From positions 62,001-126,000 of the forward strand of contig DXCV01000048.1 of NCBI GenBank assembly GCA_019115825.1: DNA of 64,000 nucleotides. The letters are read 5' to 3'. The position numbers and the translations under genes are program-made. The first letter of the stretch is position 1. Every line of letters begins with the position of its first letter. Source of the DNA: Candidatus Bacteroides pullicola. Its GTDB lineage: Bacteria > Bacteroidota > Bacteroidia > Bacteroidales > Bacteroidaceae. The notes beneath the pieces are model-generated. The model was given only the letters and a program-made list of their open reading frames with translations. It had not been told where the DNA came from and did no database searches. Below, in pieces: positions 8,320-60,415 of the stretch.

Positions 8320-8931
8320 ATGCTGCTGAAACTCTACAACAAGAACAACGATCCCGCCGACCTGCAACGCGTCATCGACGTGCTGAACGACGGCGGCCTG
8401 CTCATCTACCCCACCGACGGACGCTATGCCATTGGTTGCCACGGCCTGAAGGAACGGGCCATCGAGCGCATCTGCCGCCTCAAGGGCATTGACCCGAAGA
8501 AGAACAACCTGGCCATCATCTGCTACGACCTGGCCGCCATCAGCGAGTATGCCAAGGTGGACAACACGACCTTCAAGCTGATGAAGCGCAACCTGCCAGG
8601 CCCCTTCACCTTCATCCTGAACGGCACGACCCGCCTGCCCAAAATCTTCCGCAACCGCAAGGAAGTAGGTATCCGTATGCCGGACAATCCCATCATCCGT
8701 GAAATCGCCCGCCTGCTGGACGCCCCCATCATGACCACCACCCTGCCCCACGACGAGGACGACGACCCGGAATACACCACCGACCCGGAACTCATCGACG
8801 AGAAATACGGCGACCTGGTGGACCTGGTGATAGACGGCGGCATCGGCGGACTGGACGGCTCGACGGTAGTGGACTGCACGGGCGACGAGCCGGTCATCGT
8901 GCGGCAGGGAGCGGGGGAATTGCTGGAATAG
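8320..8931 (+). CDS. Sua5/YciO/YrdC/YwlC-family protein (YciO-like)
   Basis: GGLLIYPTDGRYAIGCHGLKERAIERICRLKGID; NLPGPFTFIL. Confidence 0.9.
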   Translation: MLLKLYNKNNDPADLQRVIDVLNDGGLLIYPTDGRYAIGCHGLKERAIERICRLKGIDPKKNNLAIICYDLAAISEYAKVDNTTFKLMKRNLPGPFTFILNGTTRLPKIFRNRKEVGIRMPDNPIIREIARLLDAPIMTTTLPHDEDDDPEYTTDPELIDEKYGDLVDLVIDGGIGGLDGSTVVDCTGDEPVIVRQGAGELLE

Positions 8932-8998
8932 GGTGAACAATTCCGGTTGGCCGGGGTTATATAGGCATATATGTATCACTCTTAAAACCCACACGTAT

Positions 8999-10084
8999 AT
9001 GAAAAAGAAACTATCCCTCATCTTACTGGCCGCCCTAACAGGCACGGCCCACATCCCCGCCGATGCCTGCACCGGCATCACCCTGAAGAGCCAGGACGGC
9101 CGGACCATCGTGGCCCGCACCATCGAATGGGGCGGCAGCGACCTGAATAGCCAATATGTTATCGTGCCGCGCGGCTACCGGCAACAGTCCTTCCTGCCCG
9201 GCGGCACAACGGACGGCATGAGCTTCACCGCCCGCTACGGCTATGTGGGCCTCTCCGTGGAGCAGGAACAGTTCGTGGCCGAAGGACTGAACGAAGCTGG
9301 TCTGTCCGCCGGACTGTTCTATTTCCCTGCCTACGGCCAATATGAGACATACGATCCCGCAGAGAAAGCAACTACCCTCGCCGACCTACAGCTGGTGGCC
9401 TATGTGCTGGGCGAATGTGCCACGGTGGACGAAGTGAAAGCCGCCGTGCAACGCGTCCACATCGTGCAGATTGACCCGCGTGCCTCGACCGTGCATTGGC
9501 GGTTCACCGACCCCTCCGGACATCAGATTGTACTGGAAATTGTGGAGGACGGCCAACTGCGTTTCTACGAGAATCCATTGGGCGTGCTGACCAACTCACC
9601 CGACCTGCCTTGGCACCTGACCAACCTGAACAACTACGTCAACCTCTTCCCCGGTTCGGCACCCGCCCGAAAGCTGGGCAGCGTGGAACTGAGGCAATTC
9701 GGCGCAGGCAGCGGTTTTCTCGGCCTGCCGGGTGACGTGACACCTCCCTCACGCTTCGTGCGTGCCGCCTTCTACCAAGCCACGGCTCCCCTACAGGCCA
9801 CGGCGGAAAAAGCCATCCTGCAAGGCTTCCAGATCCTGAACAACTTCGACATCCCCGTGGGCATCGAGTTTGCTGACGGCAAGATACCGGCCGACATCCC
9901 CAGCGCCACGCAATGGACCTCAGCCACGGACATGACGGGACGGCGCATCTACTTCCGCACGATGTACGACAGCCGCATCCGCTGCATCGACCTGAACAAC
10001 ATCGACTTCGCCCGGACCACGTACCAAGCCCAGCCGATGGACACGAAGAAAGAACAACCCATCCAACACATTGACATCAAATAG
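8999..10084 (+). CDS. Linear amide C-N hydrolase (choloylglycine hydrolase/penicillin V acylase family)
   Basis: Signal peptide then ADACTGITLKSQDGRTIVARTIEWGG (N-terminal nucleophile Cys); LTNSPDLPWHLTNL. Confidence 0.85.
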   Translation: MKKKLSLILLAALTGTAHIPADACTGITLKSQDGRTIVARTIEWGGSDLNSQYVIVPRGYRQQSFLPGGTTDGMSFTARYGYVGLSVEQEQFVAEGLNEAGLSAGLFYFPAYGQYETYDPAEKATTLADLQLVAYVLGECATVDEVKAAVQRVHIVQIDPRASTVHWRFTDPSGHQIVLEIVEDGQLRFYENPLGVLTNSPDLPWHLTNLNNYVNLFPGSAPARKLGSVELRQFGAGSGFLGLPGDVTPPSRFVRAAFYQATAPLQATAEKAILQGFQILNNFDIPVGIEFADGKIPADIPSATQWTSATDMTGRRIYFRTMYDSRIRCIDLNNIDFARTTYQAQPMDTKKEQPIQHIDIK

Positions 10085-10099
10085 TACGAAAACAAAGCA

Positions 10100-10156
10100 A
10101 GGCGCGGATCACGCGAATTACATACGGTATCTTTGTAATCCGCGCAATCCGCGCCT
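10100..10156. repeat. REP-like stem-loop element (GGCGCGGAT family), copy 1
   Basis: AGGCGCGGATCACGCGAATTAC ... GTAATCCGCGCAATCCGCGCCT; convergent intergenic, may act as terminator. Confidence 0.7.
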
Positions 10157-10175
10157 AATTCTATAGCCTCCGGAC

Positions 10176-12602
10176 TCAATATACGAAGCGCAACTCCGCG
10201 GCTTCGCCTTTCGCCAACTTCAGCTCAATCATCTCGTCAGAAAGCGTAGTGGCCTTGCCGCCGATGGTCACTGTGGCCTCCGTGGCTCCGGCGGGCATCC
10301 GGACAAGGAATGTACCCGGACAGAGCGCACGAACCGTAGCCTGCACGGCACGCCCTCCCTGCCAATCCAAATCGACAGACGCACCACCCCGTACCCTCAT
10401 GTGACGGAAACTGCCTTCATCCCAACTGTCCGGCAAGGCAGGCAGAAGGTGGATAAAGCCCTCGTGGCTCTGCAACAGCATCTCGCCGATGCCGGCCGTG
10501 CCGCCGTAATTGCCGTCTATCTGGAAAGGCGGATGCGCACAGAACAGGTTGGGGAAAGTGCCGCTGCCGTGCGCCCCGGTCTGCGGATCGACAGCAGGAT
10601 GCAGGAGGCTGCGGAACAGCTTCCACGCCCGGTTGCCGTCGCCCAGACGGGCCCAGAAGTTCATCTTCCACGCACGGCTCCAGCCGGTGGCCTCATCGCC
10701 ACGGCGGTTCAGCGTGACGCGGCAAGCCTCGGCCAATTCGGGTGTACGGAGGGGTGAGATGAGATTGGCGGGGTGCAACCCATAGAGGTGGGAGACGTGA
10801 CGGTGGTGTACATCCACCTCGCGATAATCCTCCAGCCACTCCTGCAAATAGCCTTCCTTGCTGACTTGCATCGGCGGGAACTGCTTCATGTCGGCTTCCA
10901 AGCGGGCAACCAAGTCGGCGTCGCGACCCAAGATGCGGGCAGCGGCGATGACATTGGTATACAGTTCGGTCAGCAGTTGCACGTCCATCGTGGGTCCCAT
11001 GCAGATGCTGACCGAATGCACGGTGTCGCCCGGCACGTAGAACGCATTCTCCGGCGAGGAAGTCGGTGCCGTGACCAACCAACCGTGGCGGGGTTCGCGC
11101 ACCGTGGTGGAAGCAAAGAACCGGGCAGCCCCCTTCAGGATGGGATAGATGCGCTCCAGGTAAGCCTTGTCCTGCGAATACTGGTAATGCTCCCACAGAT
11201 GGGCGCAGAGCCATGCCCCGCCCGTATTGGTAGCTCCCCACGAGGGATGCTCGCCGGGGGCGGTATAGTTCCAGACGTTGGTCATCATGTGCAACACCCA
11301 ACCTTCGGCGTCTTCACCATAAAAGGCACGGGCAGTCTCCTCGCCCGAGGGGATAAGGCGTTCCATCAGTGTGGTCAGCGGCTGGTAGAGTTCGGAGAGC
11401 CCGGCCTGCTCCAGCGGCCAATGGTTCATCTGGATATTGATATTGGTGTGGTAGTCACCGTTCCAAGGCGTGAGCACACCGTTGGCCCAAAGCCCCTGCA
11501 AATTGGGAGGCAAGGAGCCGGGACGCGTGCTGCTGATGAGGAGGTAGCGGCCATAGTTGTAATACAGGGCAGCCAAGCCGGGCACAGGACGGTCTGCGAA
11601 GCGCAAGAGGCGTTCGTTGGTGGGCAGGGCATCGTCCGGCGAGGCGGGCAAAGTGAGGGAGACGCGGTCGTAGAGGTCACGATGGGCAGCCATGTGGGAT
11701 TGCTCCATCCCGGACACTTCATCCACGGCTTTCAGCAGACTGTCGCACACCTCCACATAGCGGTCGCCGGAAAAGTCCGTACCTTCTGCCGCAAAGGAAG
11801 TCGTGGCGGACAGAATCAACCAGGCTTCCTGCCCTTCCTTCAAGGTAATGCCCTTCTCCGGGGAGATGCTCACGGCTCCACCTTTAGAAAGCAGATGCAT
11901 GGCCACGCGGTACTTCATGCCTTTCTTGCCGGGATTGCCGCTGGAGAGCTGGCCGCTCATCAGCAACACATCGCCATCAGCCGAAACCGTTGCTTGGGCC
12001 GCACGACTCAGGCGGGCCGAGAACGACAAGGCACCCGGACGGCTGGCCGTCAGCCGGACAAGCATGACGTCACGGTCGCGAGAGACGAAGTATGTCCGCC
12101 CATAGTCCACACCGCCCAACGTGAAGGAGGTATGCGCCACACCGTCGCGAAGGGAGAGGGAACGGACGTACTTCTCCGGACCGGATGACGCCGGATAAGA
12201 GAAGTCAATATCCAGGTCACCCAGCACTTGATAGGAGCCATAACGGCCATCGGTTTCCTGCTTCTTGGGGACGAAGCTGCGGTACATCAGTTCCTGCGCC
12301 TCCAGGTTCTTGCCCTCGAAGAGCAGTTGACGGATGGCGGGCAGGCTCTTGGAAGCCTCGGGATTGCGATAGTCGGATTCCGAGCCGCTCCACAAGGAAA
12401 TTTCATTCAAGACAATATGTTCACGGTCTACTCCCCCATCGGGCATCATGCCCAAGCGGCCATTGCCCAAGGGAAGGGTTTCCTCCCAGATGGAGGCGGG
12501 GGCGGTGTACCACAGACGATGGTTGCAAGTGTCCGTCGGAGCAGTGGCAGCCATTGAGAAAAGGGGAAGCCACGCACAAAGAAAGGTTATCAGGGATTTC
12601 AT
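10176..12602 (-). CDS. GH95 family alpha-L-fucosidase
   Basis: LWYTAPASIWEETLPLGNGRLGMMPDGGVDREHIVLNEISLWSG; PPNLQGLWANG; DGNYGGTAGIGEMLLQS. Confidence 0.9.
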   Translation of the reverse strand: MKSLITFLCAWLPLFSMAATAPTDTCNHRLWYTAPASIWEETLPLGNGRLGMMPDGGVDREHIVLNEISLWSGSESDYRNPEASKSLPAIRQLLFEGKNLEAQELMYRSFVPKKQETDGRYGSYQVLGDLDIDFSYPASSGPEKYVRSLSLRDGVAHTSFTLGGVDYGRTYFVSRDRDVMLVRLTASRPGALSFSARLSRAAQATVSADGDVLLMSGQLSSGNPGKKGMKYRVAMHLLSKGGAVSISPEKGITLKEGQEAWLILSATTSFAAEGTDFSGDRYVEVCDSLLKAVDEVSGMEQSHMAAHRDLYDRVSLTLPASPDDALPTNERLLRFADRPVPGLAALYYNYGRYLLISSTRPGSLPPNLQGLWANGVLTPWNGDYHTNINIQMNHWPLEQAGLSELYQPLTTLMERLIPSGEETARAFYGEDAEGWVLHMMTNVWNYTAPGEHPSWGATNTGGAWLCAHLWEHYQYSQDKAYLERIYPILKGAARFFASTTVREPRHGWLVTAPTSSPENAFYVPGDTVHSVSICMGPTMDVQLLTELYTNVIAAARILGRDADLVARLEADMKQFPPMQVSKEGYLQEWLEDYREVDVHHRHVSHLYGLHPANLISPLRTPELAEACRVTLNRRGDEATGWSRAWKMNFWARLGDGNRAWKLFRSLLHPAVDPQTGAHGSGTFPNLFCAHPPFQIDGNYGGTAGIGEMLLQSHEGFIHLLPALPDSWDEGSFRHMRVRGGASVDLDWQGGRAVQATVRALCPGTFLVRMPAGATEATVTIGGKATTLSDEMIELKLAKGEAAELRFVY

Positions 12603-14887: not shown

Positions 14888-14993
14888 GGAATCAATGGCA
14901 TTGATTCCATAAAAAGGTGGCACCTTTTTATGAAAGAGGTGGCACCTCTTTATAGAAAAGGTGGCACCTTTAATAGGCAAAGGTCGTACCTTT
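14888..14993. repeat. Array of five 22-bp-period dyads (AAAGGTG/CACCTTT and AATCAATG/CATTGATT modules), array 1
   Basis: GGAATCAATGGCATTGATTCC, CATAAAAAGGTGGCACCTTTTTATG, AAAGAGGTGGCACCTCTTT, AAAGGTGGCACCTTT, AAAGGTCGTACCTTT; centres 14898, 14920, 14942, 14964, 14986. Confidence 0.9.
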
Positions 14994-25009: not shown

Positions 25010-26885
<1,876 letters not shown>

Positions 26886-35076: not shown

Positions 35077-35160
35077 AAAGGTGGTACCTTTGGTATAAAA
35101 AGGTGGTACCTTTAATATAAAAAGGTCGTACCTTTATTAGGAAAAGGTGGCACTGATTCT
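35077..35160. repeat. Array of 22-bp-period dyads, array 2 (four units, last a hybrid)
   Basis: AAAGGTGGTACCTTT x2, AAAGGTCGTACCTTT, AAAAGGTGGCACTGATTCT; centres 35084, 35106, 35128, 35150. Confidence 0.9.
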
Positions 35161-42937: not shown

Positions 42938-43025
42938 GGCGGAGGAGCGGGTAAGCACGGGCGCACGAGCAGGTAAGCACGGGCGGAGGTACGGGTAAGC
43001 ACGGGCAGCGGCTACATCCCGCAAC
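42938..43025. repeat. 22-bp tandem repeat, 4 units (locus C)
   Basis: ggcggaggagcgggtaagcacg | ggcgcacgagcaggtaagcacg | ggcggaggtacgggtaagcacg | ggcagcggctacatcccgcaac. Confidence 0.88.
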
Positions 43026-44789: not shown

Positions 44790-48377
<3,588 letters not shown>

Positions 48378-48404: not shown

Positions 48405-49868
48405 TTATCTGAATAGTTCAGACTGCCGATACACTCCGAAAGAATGGAGAGCCGGACAAGCCCGCCCGTCCTCAATGCGAAGGCGTACATAACGCGCCGT
48501 GACAGGAGCGAAACGGACTATCCACTTGTGACCGATGCACTGCTTGCCGGTAGCCTCCGTTATGGGATTCCACTGACGGCCGTCGTCCGAATATTCCACA
48601 CTCCAACGGGAAGTGCGATGCCCCAGTTCTATCACCTCTTCCGCCATCAGGCAGTCGAAAGTAGCGGCCTTGGACATACGGAAAACAATATCGCTCTTCA
48701 CATTGCCGTCGCGCCCCGCATAATAAGTGGACTTGTCATTATCCACCAAATACTTGGCCGCAAACTTTCCCCCTCGCTCGTTGGTGGCCGTCACACGGCT
48801 GCCTGCCAACAGATTGTGGCCGAATGTTTCCTTCAGGCCCTGCGCCAGCAAAGCCACATGCAAGGAGTCCGTGGGATGAATGAGTCCCCGACGGTCCGGA
48901 GGCAGATTGAGCAACAAGACGCTGTTATGGCCTACCGACGTGCAATAAATGTCCCACAATTCCTTGACCGACTTGACACGGACATCCTCCTCGGCATGGT
49001 AGAACCAACTGGGACGGATGGAAACGTCGGTCTCGGCAGGCACGTATGCGTCGCCGTCCCAGACACCTTCGTTCAAAGCCTGGTAATAAGCGGCCTCATC
49101 GCGGATAGCCACAGAGTCTGTGGTGGCCCAGCAGGGGTCGCCAGCCTCTCCCCGTTCATTGCCCATCCAGCGCACGTCGGCAAACGGATAGGAGTTCTTG
49201 GTACCGAAGATGACGCAATCCGGCTGCAGGCGACGCACGATTTCATGCCAATGGGTGTAGAGCGGAGTGGTCAGCTCATCCGCCCCGGCACCATCCCACC
49301 AGGTTTCCCAAATCTTCCCGTACTGGCTCATCAGTTCGGTCAACTGGGCGGCATAATAATGCTTGTAGCGTTCTGTGCTGTAGTCCGGATGGAGATGCTC
49401 ATGGCGGTCGTGCGGACCCAAGTAAATACCTGCCTTGATGCCATATTCCTCACATGCATCCACAAATTCGCGCACCACATCGCCCTGCCCGTTTTTCCAA
49501 GTGGCATTCTTGACGCAATAATCCGTATAGCGGCTGGGCCAGAGGCAAAAGCCGTCGGCATGTTTGGCCGTGAGGATACCGGCAGGGATGCCCGCCGATT
49601 TCAGCACTTGCATCCATTGGGTGCAATCCAGAGCCGTGGGGTTAAACAGGGCGGCCGGAGCCTTGCCGTCTCCCTCGTTCACAAATTCCTCGAAGGTGTT
49701 AAGCCCGAAATGAAAGAAAGCAATCATTTCGCGGTCATACCACTCCAATTGTCTTTCACTGGGCACAAGTCCGCATGGTTCGGGAGCTTTCTGTGCCATC
49801 ACGCCGACTGTGGCTGCCGCACTTATCCCTGCGGCGAGGAAGAATTTTTTCATCTTCATGGTCTTCAA
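48405..49868 (-). CDS. GH29 family alpha-L-fucosidase with C-terminal F5/8-type (discoidin-like) domain
   Basis: WYDREMIAFFHFGLNTFEEFVNEGDGKAPAALFNPTALDCTQWMQVLKSAGIPAGILTAKHADGFCLWPS; LLLNLPPDRRGLIHPTD. Confidence 0.93.
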   Translation of the reverse strand: MKTMKMKKFFLAAGISAAATVGVMAQKAPEPCGLVPSERQLEWYDREMIAFFHFGLNTFEEFVNEGDGKAPAALFNPTALDCTQWMQVLKSAGIPAGILTAKHADGFCLWPSRYTDYCVKNATWKNGQGDVVREFVDACEEYGIKAGIYLGPHDRHEHLHPDYSTERYKHYYAAQLTELMSQYGKIWETWWDGAGADELTTPLYTHWHEIVRRLQPDCVIFGTKNSYPFADVRWMGNERGEAGDPCWATTDSVAIRDEAAYYQALNEGVWDGDAYVPAETDVSIRPSWFYHAEEDVRVKSVKELWDIYCTSVGHNSVLLLNLPPDRRGLIHPTDSLHVALLAQGLKETFGHNLLAGSRVTATNERGGKFAAKYLVDNDKSTYYAGRDGNVKSDIVFRMSKAATFDCLMAEEVIELGHRTSRWSVEYSDDGRQWNPITEATGKQCIGHKWIVRFAPVTARYVRLRIEDGRACPALHSFGVYRQSELFR

Positions 49869-49897
49869 TAAGCTAAAAAATAAATGAGTTACGTCGG

Positions 49898-49943
49898 CAA
49901 AAGTAAACTGGCAGGCTTAGGAAAGGGATTAATAAAGGATTAA
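49898..49943 (-). promoter_or_regulatory. Promoter/operator of GH29-GH2: phased TTAATCC repeats plus -7 box
   Basis: Minus strand TTAATCCTTTA-TTAATCC-N20-TACTTTTG (repeat spacing 11 bp). Confidence 0.65.
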
Positions 49944-49957
49944 CGGGCCATGAATTT

Positions 49958-52534
49958 TCAATTAACCGTACCAACATCTTCAAAACGAAGAGGATAGGGT
50001 TCACCCATCATCTGCTGGTATTCCTTGGCAAACAAGACATACGCCTGCAAAGCCTTATCGCGTTGCCCCTGTTGCCGGTATATGGCAACCGTATGCGTCA
50101 AGGCTGTTTCGGACAAAGGATCCCACTTCTGCAGGATTCTGCATACACGCAGCCGGGCGACGCCACCAACCTCTATCTGACGTTCCAGGAAAGAGATGAC
50201 GAATGTCTCCACCTGTTGTTTGACATAATCGAACAATTCCGTCCGTACCGTATCCAGGAATTTGCCGCGCGACAACAGACGAATCATTTCCTCCCGTTCT
50301 TCCTCGGATTCCGGCACTTGTGTCAAGCGATCCGTCAGCACGGACAGACGCCAGAAATCGCAGTTGCATTCTTCAGACAACTCCAGCCGATAATATCCCG
50401 AATTATGCGTCAGGACAATCCCATCCATGTCCTGCAAAGCCTTGCGCAGATGGTTTATGTTCACGTTCTTCAGATTCTTTATCTTTTCCTCGGGCTTGTC
50501 CGGCCAAAACAGCACATTCAGATCGGAAGACAATACCCCGTCCTTCAAGACGCTGTTCACCAGAATATACAGGAAAAGATGGCGTATCTTGGGACTGAAC
50601 AAATGGCTTATGTCCAATCCGTTTCTGTCCACTGCATAAAACGGGCCGAACAGACACAACCGATTGTGTGCCTGCTGCGGTGCGGATTGCTCTTCATCCG
50701 CACCGGCTTCCCAGAGAAGAGGAGCAGAAGGTACTTCGTCCCTTGTGACCTCATCGGCAGACTGCTGCGGTTCGGCCTCATCCACGACCGGCTTTTGATG
50801 CCGACGGATGCGCATACCCAATATCCATACGACTCCCCCACCGGCAGCCAACGCGACAAGCATCCATATCCACCAAGGCAGGGAAGCCTGCCGGTCATAC
50901 CGGTGGACTGCCTCCTCGCCGACAGGCGGATCGGAAAGGGCATAAATGCGCGTCTCGTTATCGCCGTATTTCCCAAATTCCTGGATGACGCAATAAAACT
51001 CGCGCAAACGTGCGCTATAATACAGATTGGCGTTGGTGGCTATCTCTTCGGATGTCATGGGAATGCTGTCGCCCAAGACTTCGCAATGCCCGTCGGCCAC
51101 GGAATAGCGGTAAAGCCGGAGATGCGTCTGTGGCTTATATTCCGGATAGGCCAAGAGATAAAGCCACTTCCCGTCGGGCGAAGGGATCATGTCGCGGACA
51201 GGCACCCTGTTCTCGGCCGGGGTGGGATGTTCCCAAAGTTTCTCAATGCGGTGCCGCTCCAAGTCCAGGCGGTACAGGTCGTAATAATAACGGATGCCCA
51301 CATTTTGGTCGCCCGCCTCATTGCCTTTGCCGCCATACAGATAGGCCTGCTTGCCATCGGATGCCAAAGCCATGCCGGCAAAGAAACGGGGCGCGACGGC
51401 AGGACCGTCGAAATGCACCGTATCCCAACGGTTGGCGGCCAGGTCATAACTGATGAACGAGTTGTAATAGCTGCGGTTGCCATATCCGCCAAAGAACAGG
51501 ATACGCCTGGACTGCTGGTCGAACAAGGCCCCGTGATGATGCAGCTGCAAATCGGCATGGCCTTTGTCCAACATCTCCCAACGGCACGAGGACGGTTCTA
51601 TGCGGGCCACATACGTGTCCGGCCCGTTCAGCTCGTATGCATAAATGCAACTGTCCCGCTCGCCATAAAAGCACATACCCAAACGGACAGGCAAAGCCGG
51701 ACTGTCATAGGGCCTGCCTTGCGCCACATTCCGATAGAGGTCGTAAGCAACCAGCGAGTCGCGGTTGTACACATAGGCCATCTGGCGACCGACGGAAAAA
51801 GCGAAACCGGCCGGCGAGAGGGAATAATAGCGATACAAAGGCTTCCAATGATAGGCATCATTGACCAGCCAAACCGGATTTTGCACATATCCCCGGACAA
51901 CCCCCTCGCTGTCATGCACCCCGCAGCCTGTGCTTTCATCCAAGGGGAAACGCCGCACCTCGCCATTGCATTCCACCTCCAGATTGCGCAGGCAGAACGA
52001 AGCCGTCTCCAGGATATGCTGATACATTCCAAAGTAGAGGACGGGCACAAACGGGATGCCGGCGCCTTTCGTCCCGATGTCACGGATGGAGGCCGAATCA
52101 TTGTCTATGCGCACAAAAGCCTCGCCCGCCTCAAAGTCCAGACGCAACGACACGTCTATCCACCGCCGATGCACCTCGCGGACAGGCACCGTGAACGTGT
52201 GAAAAATCTGTTTCCCGTCCTGGGCCAACATAAAACTGCCCGTATTCTTCTCCGCGTCATAGACGTAAGTCAGGTTATAAGCCCAATCTGTCTCCTTATC
52301 TTTCAGATAAAAAATATAGCCGGGGCTCTCGTAGTTCTGGGCTTTATATTCGAAAGAGATTGACAAATAGCGGGCAGCCGGCAAGGCATGGCGCTCGTCG
52401 AAGACACAGAAAGAAGACCTTTCAGCTATCCGGCTCTCATTGCCATAGAACCGCAGCCCCTGCGCATAACCGTTACCTACCAGGCAGGAAAACACGAAAA
52501 AGAATATGAATAGTAAACACCTCATGGCTAACAA
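49958..52534 (-). CDS. Transmembrane one-component regulator: LamG-like and kelch-like extracytoplasmic region, single TM, cytoplasmic SARP-type winged helix plus BTAD-like domain
   Basis: Signal peptide; kelch-like RRILFFGGYGNRSYYNSFISYDLAANRWDTVHF / KQAYLYGGKGNEAG; TM WWIWMLVALAAGGGVVWILGM; LFSPKIRHLFLYILVNS...LSSDLNVLFWPDKPEEKIKNLKNVNINHLRKAL; TPR-like end. Confidence 0.75.
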   Translation of the reverse strand: MLAMRCLLFIFFFVFSCLVGNGYAQGLRFYGNESRIAERSSFCVFDERHALPAARYLSISFEYKAQNYESPGYIFYLKDKETDWAYNLTYVYDAEKNTGSFMLAQDGKQIFHTFTVPVREVHRRWIDVSLRLDFEAGEAFVRIDNDSASIRDIGTKGAGIPFVPVLYFGMYQHILETASFCLRNLEVECNGEVRRFPLDESTGCGVHDSEGVVRGYVQNPVWLVNDAYHWKPLYRYYSLSPAGFAFSVGRQMAYVYNRDSLVAYDLYRNVAQGRPYDSPALPVRLGMCFYGERDSCIYAYELNGPDTYVARIEPSSCRWEMLDKGHADLQLHHHGALFDQQSRRILFFGGYGNRSYYNSFISYDLAANRWDTVHFDGPAVAPRFFAGMALASDGKQAYLYGGKGNEAGDQNVGIRYYYDLYRLDLERHRIEKLWEHPTPAENRVPVRDMIPSPDGKWLYLLAYPEYKPQTHLRLYRYSVADGHCEVLGDSIPMTSEEIATNANLYYSARLREFYCVIQEFGKYGDNETRIYALSDPPVGEEAVHRYDRQASLPWWIWMLVALAAGGGVVWILGMRIRRHQKPVVDEAEPQQSADEVTRDEVPSAPLLWEAGADEEQSAPQQAHNRLCLFGPFYAVDRNGLDISHLFSPKIRHLFLYILVNSVLKDGVLSSDLNVLFWPDKPEEKIKNLKNVNINHLRKALQDMDGIVLTHNSGYYRLELSEECNCDFWRLSVLTDRLTQVPESEEEREEMIRLLSRGKFLDTVRTELFDYVKQQVETFVISFLERQIEVGGVARLRVCRILQKWDPLSETALTHTVAIYRQQGQRDKALQAYVLFAKEYQQMMGEPYPLRFEDVGTVN

Positions 52535-52626: not shown

Positions 52627-52736
52627 GCGGACGGCTATACCCGCGCCCGCAAGCGGGGATACCGCCGCCCACGGGCGCAGATACCGCCGCCCGTGTCCGG
52701 AGATACCCCCGCCCAAAGGCGTGGATACAGTCCTTG
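52627..52736. repeat. 22-bp tandem repeat, 4-5 units (locus D, GC-rich variant)
   Basis: gcggacggctatacccgcgccc | gcaagcggggataccgccgccc | acgggcgcagataccgccgccc | gtgtccggagatacccccgccc | degenerate. Confidence 0.85.
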
Positions 52737-52745
52737 CTTCCAAGG

Positions 52746-54443
52746 TTATTCCCAGCCCGGATTGTTTGGTAATAAATTCGGATTCAACGTCGTCTGGTCG
52801 ATGGGAATGGGATGCAGGTAGAGCTTGTCGTCCCATGTGCGCGTCTCGTTATCCGGATAGACCACCAGGAATCCGTCCGCATTGACCGTCCGCCCGAAGG
52901 AATCGCCATAAGCGGCCCGCATCTCGTCGGACACCCACATGCCCAACATCGACTTGGGATTTTCTATCAGCCGGCCTGCGGCCCAACGCACGATGTCGTC
53001 CCACCGGAAGCCCTCGCCCAGCAACTCGACGGCCCGCTCGCGGCGGATTTCATAGAGCAACGGGGAAAGATCGTATCCATAATCCGGCCAATTGGGGTCG
53101 GTATAGCCGACTTCAACGGAAAGAGGGGGCATCCCCACACGGTTGCGCAAGGCATTGACGGTGAGGTTCAGCACCTCTTGGTCGCACTCGCCCAGTTCGG
53201 CCTTGGCCTCCGCATAGTTCAGCAACACCTCGGCATAACGGAAGATGAAGACATCCAGCGTGGAGAGTCCGATGTTCCACTGCTCGGGGTCGGGCGAATG
53301 CCACTTCATCACGTGATAACCCGTCGTGCAATACTTGGTATCCAGGGAGGGCACCGCATTATACGTGGGCGTGCCGTCACCACTGAGTTTATAAGGCAGG
53401 GTCGGATTGTCAATGCTTTGCCGCAGGCGGGGGTCACGCCTCATCAGTTCGTCGGACAACATGGGCGCCTCGCTGCCGTAGTCCGGGCTGACAGCCGTAG
53501 GCAGACCGTCGGCACAGAGGTATTGCTCGAACATGGCGCGGCTCATGCCCGTATAGGATTCCTCCATCTGGCGCGTGTTGTTCTGCATCAGCAGTTCCGC
53601 CTCGTACACGCGGGGCATGATGCACTCGCTGTTACCCGACAAATCCTCCTGGATGAACAGGTTGTAGTAGTCGCGCTCCGTATCGCCCGTGCTCCATACC
53701 GAATAACGCCCTTCCGTAATCAAGGTGTTGGCGGCATCGGCCGCTTCGCGGAACACCTCGTCGGCGTCGCCCAGGCCGTGGTATTTGCGGTAAGAGGCTT
53801 CGTACAGGCAGACGCGCGACTTGAACGCCAAGGCAGCCTGGCGGTGCAGGGCGCCCGCCTCCACGCCGGAAGCGTCCGGCAGGTGCTCGATGGCAAAGTC
53901 AAGGTCTTCCAGGATATGCCCGTAGACCACCTTGCGGTCATCGCGGCCCTTATAGAGCTCCTCGGAATTGGTGTTGAGGTCAGTCTCATACCAAGGCACG
54001 TCGCCGAAACGGCGCACTTTGTAGAAGTATTCCCAAGCACGGAAGAAACGGACAACGGCCACCTGGCGGTTGATGTTGTTCTCATCGCCTTGCACCCGGC
54101 TGTAGCGGGTCATGAAGTAATTGGCCGAACGGATATTGCCCCAGTCGCCGCTGCTCCATCCCCCGCCGCTGGTCGGCACAACTTCGAGGTTGAAAAGCCA
54201 GGTGTTGGGCTTCTCGTTGACGTAGCAGTCGGACTGGTCGTCAGCACCCGGTCCCTGCGCACCCGGCAAGATGCCGTAGAAGCCATTGGCAAACAGCTCC
54301 AGGTCTTGCTCGTTCTTCCAGAAATTCTCGTCGGACACGGATGATTCAGGATACAAATCCAGCATGTCCGAACACGACACAAACAGCGGCGAAGCGCACA
54401 AGGCGGCGACCGCCAATATATGCAAATGATTCAATCGTTTCAT
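52746..54443 (-). CDS. SusD/RagB-like nutrient-binding lipoprotein
   Basis: LFVSCSDMLDLYPESSVSDENFWKNEQDLELFANGFYGILPG; RYAEVLLNYAEAKAELG; IRRERAVELLGEGFRWDDIVRWAAG. Confidence 0.96.
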   Translation of the reverse strand: MKRLNHLHILAVAALCASPLFVSCSDMLDLYPESSVSDENFWKNEQDLELFANGFYGILPGAQGPGADDQSDCYVNEKPNTWLFNLEVVPTSGGGWSSGDWGNIRSANYFMTRYSRVQGDENNINRQVAVVRFFRAWEYFYKVRRFGDVPWYETDLNTNSEELYKGRDDRKVVYGHILEDLDFAIEHLPDASGVEAGALHRQAALAFKSRVCLYEASYRKYHGLGDADEVFREAADAANTLITEGRYSVWSTGDTERDYYNLFIQEDLSGNSECIMPRVYEAELLMQNNTRQMEESYTGMSRAMFEQYLCADGLPTAVSPDYGSEAPMLSDELMRRDPRLRQSIDNPTLPYKLSGDGTPTYNAVPSLDTKYCTTGYHVMKWHSPDPEQWNIGLSTLDVFIFRYAEVLLNYAEAKAELGECDQEVLNLTVNALRNRVGMPPLSVEVGYTDPNWPDYGYDLSPLLYEIRRERAVELLGEGFRWDDIVRWAAGRLIENPKSMLGMWVSDEMRAAYGDSFGRTVNADGFLVVYPDNETRTWDDKLYLHPIPIDQTTLNPNLLPNNPGWE

Positions 54444-54469: not shown

Positions 54470-57400
54470 TTACAAGGTGATGTTCAATCCGAAGGAAATG
54501 GACTTCTGGATGGGATAGACGTCCATGCCCAAGGATTCGGGGTCGTAAATGTCAAACAGATGGTCGAATGTCAGCAGGTTCTGTCCGGTGACATAGACAC
54601 GCAGGTTCTCGATGCCCCACTGTGCCAGCAGCGACTTGGGAAGCGTGTAGCCCAACGTCAGGTTCTTCAGGCGCAGGTAAGAGGCGTCCTGCAGGTAGCG
54701 CGTCTGCGTCTGGCGGTTGCCGGTGACATTATCAAACGTGGAACGGGGGAAATAAGCGTCGCGGTTGTCCTCGCGCCAGGAATCCAAAGCGTGCGGGAAG
54801 GGAACGTGCCACTCATTGCCGAAGCCCCAGAACTGGTTGCCTCCCAGCACGACATCGCGCTTGCCCACACCTTGCAGGAAGATGTTCAGGTCAAATCCTT
54901 TATAAGAAAGGTCGGCACGAATGCCATAAGCATAGCGCGGCTCGCTGTTTCCTATCACTGTGCGGTCGCCGGGATCGGACAGGGTGTTCTGCCCGAACGA
55001 GATTTTGCCGTCACCGTCCAGGTCCTTGTACTTCACATCGCCCGGATACCAGCCTCCACCATAAATCTCGGACTGGTCTGCATGGGCAGCCACTTCCTCC
55101 TCGCTTTGGAACAGGCCTTCCGTGACAAATCCCCAGATGTCGCCGATGTGCTGGCCCACATAATATGTATCGTCGCTAATCAGCCCTTCCGGGTTGTTGA
55201 AGCGGGTAATGGTAGCCTTGTAGTCCGACAGAATCAGGCTGACATCATACGAAAAGCCATTTTCCATGCGGTCGCGCCAGCCGACGGTCAATTCCCAGCC
55301 ATTGGTCTTGAGGTCGGCCGTGTTGGCGTTGGGAGTGCCCGTGCCCAGGACAGCAGGCAACGGGGTGCCCGCCGTAATCATGTCGTCCGTGCGGCGCTGA
55401 TACCAGTCGAACGTGCCGTAGAAGCGGTTCCGGAAGGCAGCCCAGTCAAGGCCGACATCCACCTGCTTCACCGTTTCCCAAGTCAAAAGGGCGCTGACCA
55501 ACCCACCGGGGCTCACGCTGGCCAGTTTGGAACCGCCCAACAGGTAACCCATCTCCATATTGGTGCCCATCGTGGAGATATAGGGATAGTCCCCGCCCAC
55601 GTTCTGATTGCCCAACGTACCGTAGGAGACGCGCACCTTCAACTCGTCCACCCAACGCTTAGCGGGTTCGAAGAACCGTTCGTTGGAAAGGCGCCATGCA
55701 GCAGAGAACGAGGGGAAGAACGCGAAACGGTCATCCTTGGGGAACTTGGACGAACCGTCATAGCGGCCGTTCAGCTCCAGCAGGTAGCGGTCATCATAAT
55801 TGTAGTTGATGCGCGCGAAGTAACCCATCGTGGCCCAGGCATGTTCGTTGCTGTCGGTAAATTTCTCGCCGTTGGCCATGTTCAGCGAGGGAACATCCTG
55901 GCTGATAAGGCCGTAACGCTGTGCATCGAACCAACGGTAATCCTTGCGCTCGTAAGTCCAGCCCGCCAGGAACTTGAAGCCATGCTTGCCGAAATTGCGT
56001 TCATAATCGGTGTAAAGGTTCACTACCTGGTAGTAATCATCGTCCGAAGAATATTCCACACGGCTCGGCGTGGTATGTGGGAAGATGGTGGTCACGTCCG
56101 GATTGGCATAGTGCTCGATGATTTCCTTGCCATGGTATTTCTTGTGCAGCGTGTAGAGGTTGAAGGTATAGTCCAGCTTGATGTTCCAACCCTTCAGCGG
56201 CGTAATCTGCAAGTTTCCGCCCAGCCACAGGTCGTTGGCCTTGTGCTTGCGGCTACCGGACAGAGCCTGTATGCAGGCATAGTTGGTGAAACTGCCCTGG
56301 CCGGAGAAGTAGCCGTCCGGATGGCGTACGGGCATCAAGGGACGCGAGTCTGCCCCATAGAAGGACGAATTCATGTCGTTGCTGTTCGTGCCGTAAGGCG
56401 CGTCGCGGTAAGTATTGTTGTAGTTCATGCGCATACCAACCTGCAGCCAGTCGGTGATGGACGTGTTGACATTCAAGGCAGCATTCACACGGCGGTATTC
56501 ATCATCGTAGTATTTCAGGATACCTCCTTGGCTCATGAAGCCCACAGACCCATAGTAGGTGCTCTTGTCCGTGCCTCCGTTGATGGAGAGGGTGTACTGC
56601 TGCATGAAGGTGGATGTCTTGCGGATTTCGTCCACCCAGTCCGTATTGCCGCAATACTGGTATTTGTCCGGGTCGGAAGGGTCTATGAACACAGGCGAGT
56701 TATGCTCCGGGTCCGTATAATAAGCATAGATGTGGTCCATATAATTCTGGTCGAAATAATCGCCTCCGCCCGAATTGCGGTTGGTCTCGTTCAGGAAGTT
56801 GGCGTATGACCACGAATCAATGTAATCGGGAATCTTCGTCGGACTGTTCCAAGCCCAGTTGCCCGAGAAAGACACTTTGGGCTTCTGCGCCTTGCCTTTC
56901 TTCGTGGTAATCAGCACCACGCCATAGGCAGCCTGCGTACCATAGATGGACGCGGAAGCGGCATCCTTCAGGACGGAAACGCTCTCCACATCGGCGGGAT
57001 TGATGAGGTTGGGGTCCATCTGCACGCCATCCACCAGGATGAGGGGCGAGGAACTGTTGATGGACGTCGTGCCACGCACGTTGAAGCTGTATCCGTTGCC
57101 CGGCGCACCGTTGCCCGCCGTCAGGTTCAGGTTGGCAATAGCGCCTTGCAGGCCCTGTGCCAAGTTGGTCAGCGGACGGCTTTCCAGCACATCGGACGAG
57201 ACACTGGCCACGGCTCCGGTGACGTTCACCTTCTTCTGCGTGCCATAACCCACCACGACCACTTCGTCCAACAGGGCATTGTCTTCCTGCAATACGATGT
57301 GTAGCGGTTTCCCATCCGTGCCGACAGTCACCTGACGGGTTGCGTAACCGATAAAGGAAATCTCCAGCACTTCGCCTTGGGCTGCCTCCAGGCTGAAACG

Positions 57401-57655
57401 GCCGTCGAGGTCGGTAATCACTCCGCTTTTTTGCGCCGCATCCACCCTGCGTATGCTGGCGCCGGGGATGCCTTCACCATTGGCATCCACCACCCGCCCC
57501 TTGACAGGCAATAATTGTTGTGTAACTTCGGACAATTCCACACCCGGCATTCCGGCAACAGGACCTGCAAAGGCCGGTTGCCCTATCGCGCCGGTCATAA
57601 AAGCCGCCAGACCTACGGTCCAAAGGCCTTTCCATACATGTTCTTGCTTTTTCAT
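54470..57655 (-). CDS. SusC/RagA family TonB-linked outer-membrane protein
   Basis: GRVVDANGEGIPGASIRRVDA; LDEVVVVGYGTQKKVNVTGAVASV; SLGMDVYPIQKSISFGLNITL end; start at MKKQEHVWKGL. Confidence 0.97.
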   Translation of the reverse strand: MKKQEHVWKGLWTVGLAAFMTGAIGQPAFAGPVAGMPGVELSEVTQQLLPVKGRVVDANGEGIPGASIRRVDAAQKSGVITDLDGRFSLEAAQGEVLEISFIGYATRQVTVGTDGKPLHIVLQEDNALLDEVVVVGYGTQKKVNVTGAVASVSSDVLESRPLTNLAQGLQGAIANLNLTAGNGAPGNGYSFNVRGTTSINSSSPLILVDGVQMDPNLINPADVESVSVLKDAASASIYGTQAAYGVVLITTKKGKAQKPKVSFSGNWAWNSPTKIPDYIDSWSYANFLNETNRNSGGGDYFDQNYMDHIYAYYTDPEHNSPVFIDPSDPDKYQYCGNTDWVDEIRKTSTFMQQYTLSINGGTDKSTYYGSVGFMSQGGILKYYDDEYRRVNAALNVNTSITDWLQVGMRMNYNNTYRDAPYGTNSNDMNSSFYGADSRPLMPVRHPDGYFSGQGSFTNYACIQALSGSRKHKANDLWLGGNLQITPLKGWNIKLDYTFNLYTLHKKYHGKEIIEHYANPDVTTIFPHTTPSRVEYSSDDDYYQVVNLYTDYERNFGKHGFKFLAGWTYERKDYRWFDAQRYGLISQDVPSLNMANGEKFTDSNEHAWATMGYFARINYNYDDRYLLELNGRYDGSSKFPKDDRFAFFPSFSAAWRLSNERFFEPAKRWVDELKVRVSYGTLGNQNVGGDYPYISTMGTNMEMGYLLGGSKLASVSPGGLVSALLTWETVKQVDVGLDWAAFRNRFYGTFDWYQRRTDDMITAGTPLPAVLGTGTPNANTADLKTNGWELTVGWRDRMENGFSYDVSLILSDYKATITRFNNPEGLISDDTYYVGQHIGDIWGFVTEGLFQSEEEVAAHADQSEIYGGGWYPGDVKYKDLDGDGKISFGQNTLSDPGDRTVIGNSEPRYAYGIRADLSYKGFDLNIFLQGVGKRDVVLGGNQFWGFGNEWHVPFPHALDSWREDNRDAYFPRSTFDNVTGNRQTQTRYLQDASYLRLKNLTLGYTLPKSLLAQWGIENLRVYVTGQNLLTFDHLFDIYDPESLGMDVYPIQKSISFGLNITL

Positions 57656-57724
57656 ACGATGTTTTTTATTGGTATTAATGTATTCTTGAATGCAAGGGGG
57701 CGCGCTCCCCTCGCCATCCGAATG

Positions 57725-57802
57725 CAAAAGTATGTAACCCTCCTTAAGAAAAGGGTTAAAAGACGATTAATAGAAACGGTTAATGAAACCCTTTCTCGTT
57801 AA
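57725..57802 (-). promoter_or_regulatory. Promoter/operator of susC-susD: phased TTAAYC repeats plus -7 box
   Basis: Minus strand TTAACCGTTTCTA-TTAATCGTCTT-TTAACCC-N20-TACTTTTG. Confidence 0.65.
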
Positions 57803-57811
57803 CCATAAGAT

Positions 57812-60052
57812 TCATGGCTTGCCATGACTATAGGAGTAGGGCAAATCCTCTGCTTGTGTACCGCGCATGGTATTGGGCACGCTGTCCATCTCGAGCACCA
57901 ATTCGCCGCCTTGCAGCAATTCATCGTGCGTCAGGTAGTTGCGAGTGAACTCCCGGCCATTCAGCGTAGCGCGGCGGATGTAAGGACGGGAAGGCGAGTT
58001 GCCTTCGGCATGGATGACAAAAGTCCGGCCACCGGGCAACGAAAGCGTCGCCTTGTCAAAGAGAGGACTGCCCAACACATATTCACCCGTGCCCGGACAA
58101 ACGGGATAGAAACCGAGAGCGCTGAAAACGTACCAGGCAGAAGTCTGCCCGTTGTCCTCATCACCGCAATAACCTTCCGGCCCCGACTGATAAAGGCGGT
58201 CCATCACCTCGCGCACACGCTGCTGGGCTTTCCAAGGCTGAGCGACGTAATCATACAAGTAAATGGCGTGCTGCACAGGCTGGTTGCCATGGGCATATTG
58301 CCCCATGTCGAGAGCCACCATCTCGGCTATCTCGTGGATGACAAAACCATAAGTTCCATAGTCATACGTATTAGGAGCGGCAAACATCGAGTCCAGCCGG
58401 GCTGCCATCACGTCGTGGCCACCCATCAGCCGGGCCAGGCCTTCAGGGTCGTGCAGGACGCTCCAGGTCCAATGCCACGAACTGCCTTCAGTGAAAGGTC
58501 CGCCCCACTCTGTTGCATCAAAATCTTTGCGCCAACGCCCTTGGGCATCCTTAGCCCAGACAAAGCCTTGCTCCGGATAGAATACGTTACGGTAGTTCTG
58601 CGCTTTCGCGTAATACTCCTCAGCGATGTCCATACGCCCCAAGGACTCGGCAAAGCGGGCCAAGCACCAATCGGCATAAGCGTATTCAAGCGTCTTGGCC
58701 GTGGCTTCCGGCACCTCAGGATAGGGCACATAACCCAACGAATCGTACCACTCATGCCCATCACGCCCCACAGAAGAAATTTCGGCATGCCGTGCCCGGG
58801 TCTGGTGCAACATGGCTTCCAACAACTGTGCAGAGTCGACAACGCAAATGCCTTTCAGCCAGGCATCGGCCGCTATAGAAAGGGAGTTGTTGCCTATCAT
58901 GCAACCACGATGTCCCGGACTGGCCCACTCGGGCAGGAAACCACTCTCCGCATAAGCATGAAGCAAAGACTGCTGGACGCCCTCGCTCACCTCAGGATAG
59001 AGCAAGGTGAAAAGCGGATGCACGGCACGGAAGGTATCCCAAAAGCCGTTGTCAGTATACATCTCACCGTTATGCACCTGCCCGTCGTAAGGGCTGTAGT
59101 ATTTCGGTTCATTGACCGGACCAAATTCGGTCAAACTGCGGGGAAACAGCAATGTACGGTATAGGCAAGAATAGAACACACGCCGTTGTTCTTCCGTGCC
59201 TCCCTCCACACGAATACGCCCCAACATTTCCTCCCAGACCTGCCGGGCGGACTCGGTCACTTCTGCCAAAGTACGGTCATTCACCTCACGGTCAAAATTA
59301 AGCCGCGCTTGTTCCGGGCTGATAAACGAAGAAGCCATCCGGACCGTAAGCTTCTCGCCAGGCTGCAGGTCAAAGCGAGCATAAGCTCTTCCCTCCTCGT
59401 CCGTGCCGGTTTCCACCATAGGCTTATCGAACTTTACCAAAAAATAGTTTCCGAAATTATCGGGCACTCCACCGTTATTATAGCGTGACACCCCGTGAAT
59501 GAGCCCGCTTTCACGCTCTACTTTTACAGAACCGCCATGCCCGTAAGCATCTACCACGATATACGGCGATTTCACCTCAGCCGGCCAGGCGACTTCCATC
59601 ACGGCGCCGCGTGCGGTGGCCGCCAATGACGCAACTGTCCCGTCTTCCAACCGGACCTGATAGACATGGGGTGCAGCCTGCTCTTCAACATGGCTAAAGC
59701 GCACGCCACGTTCCTTGTCATCCAGTTTCAACTCGCCGGACAAAGGCATAATGGAAAAAGTGCCGTAATCGTTAATCCAAGGGCTGGGCTGATGTGTCTG
59801 CCGGAAACCACGCAACAGTGTGTCACCATAAGCATACATCCATCCGCTACCGTTTTCGCCTGTCTGCGGACTCCAAAAGTTCATACCCCAAGGTATAGCT
59901 ACGGCCGGATATGTATTACCATGGGAAAAGGCAAAGGTCGATGCCGTGCCCATCAACGGATTGACCGCATCCACAGCAGAAGGGACAAACGGCTGCCTGC
60001 ATGCCGCAAGCAGGAACAAGAGGCATACTCCTAACAATTTCTTTGTGTTCAT
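57812..60052 (-). CDS. GH92 family alpha-mannosidase-like lipoprotein
   Basis: VNPLMGTASTFAFSHGNTYPAVAIPWGMNFWSPQTG; GDEDNGQTSAWYVFSALGFYPVCPGTGEYVLGSPLF. Confidence 0.95.
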   Translation of the reverse strand: MNTKKLLGVCLLFLLAACRQPFVPSAVDAVNPLMGTASTFAFSHGNTYPAVAIPWGMNFWSPQTGENGSGWMYAYGDTLLRGFRQTHQPSPWINDYGTFSIMPLSGELKLDDKERGVRFSHVEEQAAPHVYQVRLEDGTVASLAATARGAVMEVAWPAEVKSPYIVVDAYGHGGSVKVERESGLIHGVSRYNNGGVPDNFGNYFLVKFDKPMVETGTDEEGRAYARFDLQPGEKLTVRMASSFISPEQARLNFDREVNDRTLAEVTESARQVWEEMLGRIRVEGGTEEQRRVFYSCLYRTLLFPRSLTEFGPVNEPKYYSPYDGQVHNGEMYTDNGFWDTFRAVHPLFTLLYPEVSEGVQQSLLHAYAESGFLPEWASPGHRGCMIGNNSLSIAADAWLKGICVVDSAQLLEAMLHQTRARHAEISSVGRDGHEWYDSLGYVPYPEVPEATAKTLEYAYADWCLARFAESLGRMDIAEEYYAKAQNYRNVFYPEQGFVWAKDAQGRWRKDFDATEWGGPFTEGSSWHWTWSVLHDPEGLARLMGGHDVMAARLDSMFAAPNTYDYGTYGFVIHEIAEMVALDMGQYAHGNQPVQHAIYLYDYVAQPWKAQQRVREVMDRLYQSGPEGYCGDEDNGQTSAWYVFSALGFYPVCPGTGEYVLGSPLFDKATLSLPGGRTFVIHAEGNSPSRPYIRRATLNGREFTRNYLTHDELLQGGELVLEMDSVPNTMRGTQAEDLPYSYSHGKP

Positions 60053-60141: not shown

Positions 60142-60252
60142 AGAATCAGTGCCACCTTTTCTAGGAATCAATGCCAATGATTCCCCCCAATCAATGCCAA
60201 TGATTCCTCCCAATCAATGCCAATGATTCTAGGAATCAGTGCCACCTTTTTC
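60142..60252. repeat. Array of 22/23-bp-period dyads, array 3 (three AATCAATGCCAATGATT units flanked by two hybrid units)
   Basis: AGAATCAGTGCCACCTTTT ... GGAATCAATGCCAATGATTCC ... GGAATCAGTGCCACCTTTTT; centres 60152, 60174, 60197, 60220, 60242. Confidence 0.9.
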
Positions 60253-60366
60253 TCATATCGTTGTAGCCGATGTCTAAACATACTATCTCTGATACCGCTA
60301 AATAATATAGACTAAAAATGATTAGTTTCTTATATAAGCGATGCTCACAAAGTTCCGGCAGAGGGA

Positions 60367-60415
60367 TTAAAGAAAAGGTTAATGACTGATTAAACCGCAC
60401 GTATTTTATGCTTAA
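60367..60415 (-). promoter_or_regulatory. Phased TTAA repeats upstream of GH92, putative operator
   Basis: Minus strand TTAAGCA-(22)-TTAATCA-(11)-TTAACCT-(12)-TTAATCC start-to-start spacings. Confidence 0.45.

Follow-up and report, generated by a model that had tools for sequence, protein, structure and literature searches.

Control of Bacteroides PULs is usually described in terms of three types of regulators (PMC3878776). One of these, SusR, is a kinase-free membrane regulator of a PUL, and its predicted sites consist of repeats at a distance of 67 or 77 bp (PMC3878776). The operators of SARPs are built differently, as direct repeats at 11 or 22 bp, of which the 3´ one lies 8 bp away from the -10 element (PMC10936776), and the PimR operator consists of three heptamers with 4-bp spacers (PMC5930380). 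The Bacteroides -7 box is TAnnTTTG (PMC7366714). A survey text on transmembrane transcription regulators (PMC10269533) mentions neither SARP nor BTAD, and we found no paper on a TM-bearing SARP/BTAD regulator in Bacteroidota in the open literature, coverage of which was incomplete, so that absence is unproven. Here we describe a glycan locus with a regulator that most likely is a membrane-tethered SARP-type activator, distinct from the SusR, HTCS and ECF systems.

The regulator gene lies on the minus strand at 49958..52525 of the window, the whole 64,000-nucleotide stretch of DNA that was analysed, in a Bacteroides genome of 2.86 Mb. The sequence-only reading had listed the ORF as 49958-52534 (-) with a TTG start; most plausibly, translation starts at the ATG at 52525, three codons inside, giving a protein of 855 aa, and the assignment of the gene is based on the ORF list together with relatives of the same architecture. 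That the gene sits inside a SusCD locus, as had been claimed, was borne out by the Pfam domains of its neighbours, which on the minus strand are ordered GH92, SusC, SusD, regulator, GH29 and GH2. The predicted targets are a GH92 alpha-mannosidase (57815..60052; PF07971, 5e-167), a SusC-like TonB-dependent transporter (54473..57727; Plug, TonB barrel and CarbopepD_reg_2 domains) and, with it, a SusD-like lipoprotein (52749..54443; PF07980, 1.5e-43), and a GH29 alpha-L-fucosidase with an F5/8 C domain (48408..49868; PF01120 and PF00754), all on the minus strand. The GH2 beta-galactosidase gene on the same strand (44793..48368; Pfam), which encodes an N-terminal ricin-B-like lectin domain, probably is co-transcribed with GH29, from which it is separated by a 36-nt gap. 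The locus is flanked by genes for a recQ helicase and an IMP dehydrogenase, the second named from its sequence. No other regulator was found between GH92 and GH2 in the ORF list and Pfam scan of the window, no sigma factor or FecR-type anti-sigma Pfam domain was detected in the regulator or the seven neighbour genes scanned, and the Pfam scan of the regulator lacked histidine kinase, receiver and AraC domains.

The signal peptide and single TM helix noted from the sequence alone were located by hydropathy at residues 1-21 (MRCLLFIFFFVFSCLVGNGYA; 52463..52525, minus strand) and 553-571 (50813..50869, minus strand), and both hydrophobic segments recur in most relatives. Given that RIRRHQK directly follows the TM helix, the C-terminus is predicted to be cytoplasmic. 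Having a DNA-binding domain, an extracytoplasmic sensor and a TM helix with no kinase, the protein has the makeup of a membrane-bound one-component regulator, with the topology predicted from sequence. Two domains are found in the extracytoplasmic region, which was modelled with AlphaFold2 from the family alignment (pLDDT 87). Residues ~22-228 (51842..52462, minus strand) form an all-beta sandwich of LamG/ConA-like type. The LamG-like label of the sequence-only reading stands at the level of this fold only, because there is no Pfam LamG match and no PDB match by sequence for the domain; LamG identity by sequence was rejected as unsupported by the sequence libraries. Residues ~229-534 (50924..51841, minus strand) form a kelch beta-propeller, in agreement with the kelch-like region claimed earlier, given an above-cutoff match to Pfam PF24681 (E=3e-14, residues 309-446) and Foldseek matches of the ectodomain that are dominated by kelch domains at E about 1e-10.

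This periplasmic ectodomain may sense an oligosaccharide or a periplasmic partner. Binding of a periplasmic or outer-membrane protein, such as a SusC/SusD component or a lipoprotein, in place of a glycan would fit with kelch propellers often binding proteins, as most of the nearest solved kelch domains found by Foldseek do (LZTR1, KLHDC2, Keap1), and with the absence of any carbohydrate-binding Pfam match for the N-terminal domain in the window protein. We nevertheless regard a protein ligand as a tentative, somewhat unlikely reading, since the propeller is joined to a lectin-like beta-sandwich, the neighbours are mainly glycan enzymes, and HTCS with the COG3292 sensor domain bind oligosaccharides (PMC3878776).

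The sequence-only reading also had proposed a cytoplasmic winged-helix plus BTAD/TPR-like region resembling SARP regulators and had named structure prediction as the way to check it. The modelled C-terminal segment (49961..50692, minus strand), comprising the end of the linker, a SARP-type winged helix and a BTAD/TPR region as judged by AlphaFold2, Foldseek and profile matches, was predicted from the family alignment with a pLDDT of 92.7. Six PDB matches to this domain were returned by Foldseek at E<1e-3, and all are SARPs, namely AfsR in transcription complexes (8hvr/8k60) and EmbR (2fez/2ff4), aligned across the whole domain over ~250 columns with a TM (query) of 0.58-0.63. The check thus came out in favor of the proposal, and the model has the order expected for SARPs, an OmpR-type winged helix predicted to be followed by a BTAD helical domain, though placed at the C-terminus behind a TM helix rather than at the N-terminus of a cytoplasmic protein. 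Fold comparison was required, since a search of the PDB by sequence with the C-terminal profile returned only TPR and other noise; Pfam BTAD matched neither the window protein nor 7 relatives. A profile of 20 C-terminal domains matched Bacteroidota proteins carrying Pfam BTAD with 30-61 bits, compared with a best score of <9 bits in 4,422 shuffled or reversed sequences. The winged-helix and BTAD parts of this profile each matched separately, and it also has ties to BTAD/Trans_reg_C proteins. As Pfam leaves the DNA-binding domain unlabelled, proteins of this type can readily be mistaken for kelch/galactose-oxidase-like proteins. Homology to SusR was considered and rejected: family profiles of both halves gave no significant match to the proteins of the DUF6377 search, B. 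faecis SusR included, where SusR-like proteins are those with DUF6377, identified by the context of the B. faecis sus operon (GH13 and GH97 neighbours).

Relatives of the regulator were detected in 5 of 151 genomes of the family, in a few percent of genomes across the phylum and in the cultured species B. faecis, B. bouchesdurhonensis, B. faecalis and B. ndongoniae, counts that are lower bounds given that the alignment searches scored two candidates per genome. A scan of genome contigs with a single protein query gave no relatives; a three-row alignment query worked. The nearest named proteins, from Candidatus Bacteroides merdipullorum and intestinipullorum, are 64-70% identical. In a tree of 33 proteins, the window protein falls into a 14-member, mostly Bacteroidaceae clade (support 100/99), here subfamily 1, and a second clade (L035-L039 with L041) constitutes subfamily 2. 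The kelch-TM-SARP architecture recurs across Bacteroidota in the 33 rows of this tree, and therefore is not a chance fusion. Collectively, the protein is real, well conserved and new in its combination of parts, and probably is a regulator.

Some members of the wider group are organized differently. Other ectodomains are joined to the TM-SARP part in three loci: LamG_3 (L089 7890-10001), a beta-helix (L025 1465-3363) and a short one (L088 5062-6594). Tandem regulator pairs were observed outside Bacteroidia, away from PULs (L046 6828-11319, L047 6866-11357 and L049 8849-12570), with one copy of each pair having a shorter ectodomain or the cytoplasmic domain alone. In Candidatus Bacteroides intestinipullorum locus L070, the orthologue is disrupted (8507-10652), having lost ~140 codons and its reading frame. 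GH92 and the regulator have no SusCD pair between them in this locus, which nevertheless retains two predicted operator sites.

The sequence-only reading had suggested a survey of gene neighbourhoods for co-occurrence with SusCD. In eight class-level genomes, GH92 was found within 10 kb of 6 of the 11 regulator genes (expected 0.42, P about 5e-6) and SusD near 8 of the 11 (expected 1.67, P about 3e-4), P values that are indicative, the relatives being non-independent draws. The regulator is divergent from GH92 across 130-300 bp in B. faecis, B. bouchesdurhonensis, B. faecalis and others. The substrate varies, since the regulator of B. ndongoniae adjoins GH127 and arabinofuranosidase genes. The expected association therefore holds for relatives in Bacteroidia, which are linked to SusCD and GH92, but not for the relatives checked outside Bacteroidia, which adjoin housekeeping or unrelated genes rather than PULs.

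Shared intergenic sequence first suggested TTAA repeats as candidate sites, and some of the pattern initially came from visual inspection of these loci. In a loose scan of 775 kb of loci, TTAA repeats were almost only intergenic, many facing GH92, SusC, GH29 or the regulator. The probable operator reads TTAAYC-N5-TTAAYC-N6-YTAA-N11-TAnnTTTG(C), three direct repeats with an 11/12-bp pitch, the last of which ends 8 bp before the Bacteroides -7 box; laid out in full, three heptamers, the first of the form TTAAYCN, are separated by spacers of 4 bp and 5 bp, with 8 bp between the third and the -7 box. On the minus strand of the window, operator/promoter sites are predicted before SusC (57724..57770; TTAATCG-TCTT-TTAACCC-TTTTC-TTAAGGA-N8-TACTTTTGC), before GH29 (49897..49943; TTAATCC-TTTA-TTAATCC-CTTTC-CTAAGCC-N8-TACTTTTGC) and before GH92 (60347..60393), the last with one mismatch in the -7 box (GAACTTTG) and conserved in L070. 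Counterparts of the GH29 site are present in L070, L071, L072 and L073 (there just past the regulator gene), all with CTAA as the third repeat.

The form of the predicted operator was constrained in several ways. The 7/8/11 spacing gave 21 strict matches in the loci examined versus 0-3 for each of 13 altered spacings. YC, which was not a criterion in collecting sites, follows the first TTAA in 28 of 28 collected sites and the second in 25, with YT in the other three. A scan that made no use of TTAA, asking for three similar heptamers at 11/12 bp, 8 bp before TAnnTTTG, placed mostly the same sites on top. For subfamily 2, the half-site is TTAAKG, with an 11/11 pitch in most sites and again 8 bp to the -7 box. 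The predicted sites resemble SARP operators both in the pitch of the repeats and in the distance of the last repeat from the promoter box, and since this geometry matches the SARP rule, we propose a membrane-tethered SARP-type activator, a reading of the regulator that is strengthened considerably by the predicted promoter sites. Given that the sites abut the -7 box, the protein might conversely be a repressor that occludes the promoter in the absence of ligand, but SARPs are described as activators at exactly such a position (PMC10936776), and we consider repression very improbable.

Two other repeats were evaluated as operators and rejected, a tandem array of 22-bp repeats located before the regulator gene (52637-52728; similar in L082), considered as a 22-bp-spaced SARP operator, and a 23-bp repeat array (60161-60244), because arrays of ~22-bp period occur ~1 per 10 kb in the window with unrelated sequences. 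Short, mostly intergenic tandem arrays with a near-constant period of 22-23 bp are present in the window at 14912-14993, 25013-25074, 35077-35150 and 42938-43006 as well as at these two positions, and similar arrays occur in other Bacteroides loci.

The predicted operator was associated with the regulator across genomes. In the host genome of the window, the triplet has five matches, two in the locus and three that are copies of one identical element. Triplets were near the regulator in 18 of 31 cases in 11 further genomes (expected 0.24) and in 7 of 12 cases in the five genomes whose loci played no part in making the pattern (expected 0.11), and near-identical species inflate some counts. The strict composite occurs 6 times in the 151 family genomes, and 3 of these copies adjoin subfamily 1 regulators, of which three in total were found in those genomes. 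The TTAAKG composite has 3 matches in the 151 genomes, one in each genome with subfamily 2 and 0.6 to 7.5 kb from the gene, a result that speaks to absence elsewhere since the pattern was written from subfamily 2 loci. No such exact site was found near the gene in the class-level relatives G527, G398 and G845. These distributions bear on whether the TTAAYC element belongs to an unlinked transcription or sigma factor, with the kelch-SARP protein being a mere neighbour or responding to another signal. A few sites away from the regulator gene (G074, G090, G055:C5 and G877:C12) are in line with an unlinked factor, but the strict composite is almost absent from genomes without the regulator, the half-site tracks the protein subfamily with the geometry kept, the locus has no other regulator, and the geometry is that of SARP operators (PMC10936776), such that an unlinked factor appears highly unlikely. 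The shift in half-site with protein subfamily at constant geometry is the strongest argument that the family reads these sites. Within the host genome, the likely operator is largely confined to the promoters of this one cluster, which suggests a fourth kind of controller for glycan clusters.

Other matches were noted in these scans. A strong operator-type site (L108 9983-10029, in G877:C12) lies upstream of a run of genes for 6-bladed propellers (DUF5128) and may mark a distant regulon member. One TTAACCC-type triplet in G135, a genome in which no relative was found, was taken as chance, as there is no -7 box at the right distance and no relative nearby. G107, of the same genus with no regulator found, has ~20 TTAACAC/TTAACAG-type matches, which look like the sites of another regulator.

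Taken together, the protein very probably is a membrane-spanning, kinase-free one-component activator of its own glycan locus, acting via the SARP domain at TTAAYC sites. A signal received by the ectodomain would be carried by the single TM helix to the cytoplasmic SARP-type domain, which would bind the three direct TTAAYC half-sites as tandem head-to-tail protomers and may then recruit RNA polymerase to the promoters, for a regulon in the host genome that would essentially be its own locus: GH92, SusCD and GH29-GH2. The linker of ~45 residues between the TM helix and the winged helix is poorly conserved and target sites can be several kb from the gene, both of which could be explained by regulated proteolysis, with ligand triggering cleavage near the membrane and the free SARP domain reaching the promoters. 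This is unlikely, given that neither a cleavage motif nor a linked protease was identified and that SusR, which is functionally the closest parallel, has been described as a promoter-binding membrane protein (PMC3878776). The model of a tethered activator is directly testable because some relatives are in cultured species.

More broadly, we think it rather likely that membrane-anchored SARPs are a general, undescribed signalling class in Bacteroidota, in which a SARP activator and one TM helix are combined with interchangeable beta-rich ectodomains (kelch/beta-sandwich, LamG or beta-helix). In Bacteroidia, this class would add a fourth PUL regulator type to SusR, HTCS and ECF/anti-sigma and would have an operator code of its own that can be read. 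If so, PULs would gain a regulator type with a precise predicted operator and named promoters (GH92, SusC and GH29), and the SARP mode of contacting RNA polymerase, known from Streptomyces, would also work at Bacteroides -7 promoters. The sensor and its promoter might then also be used together as a glycan-inducible switch.

Among known systems, SusR already provides a precedent for kinase-free control of a PUL from the membrane (PMC3878776), a control logic that the sequence-only reading had expected to be unusual. Like the SusR-like proteins (BT3705 type, DUF6377), the window protein would regulate a PUL as a single membrane-spanning component, sensing outside and binding DNA inside through its C-terminal region. 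As for HTCS, a periplasmic sensor and a DNA-binding domain reside on one membrane-crossing chain for local PUL control, but the window protein is without the histidine kinase, receiver and AraC domain. ToxR, CadC and TcpP have an N-terminal DNA-binding domain and a C-terminal sensor. They likewise use a single TM helix to anchor a winged-helix domain at the inner membrane, though in the opposite domain order to the window protein and with no BTAD. The SARPs (AfsR, EmbR, RedD/ActII-ORF4 and PimR) share the OmpR-type winged helix and BTAD fold, along with direct-repeat operators of 11-bp pitch in which the last repeat is 8 bp from the -10/-7 element, as predicted here apart from one additional base that separates the second and third repeats. 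In contrast to the canonical SARPs, in which the DNA-binding domain is N-terminal, the domain here forms the C-terminus and is preceded by a periplasmic kelch domain and a TM helix, in a family of Bacteroidota tied to glycan loci rather than antibiotic clusters.
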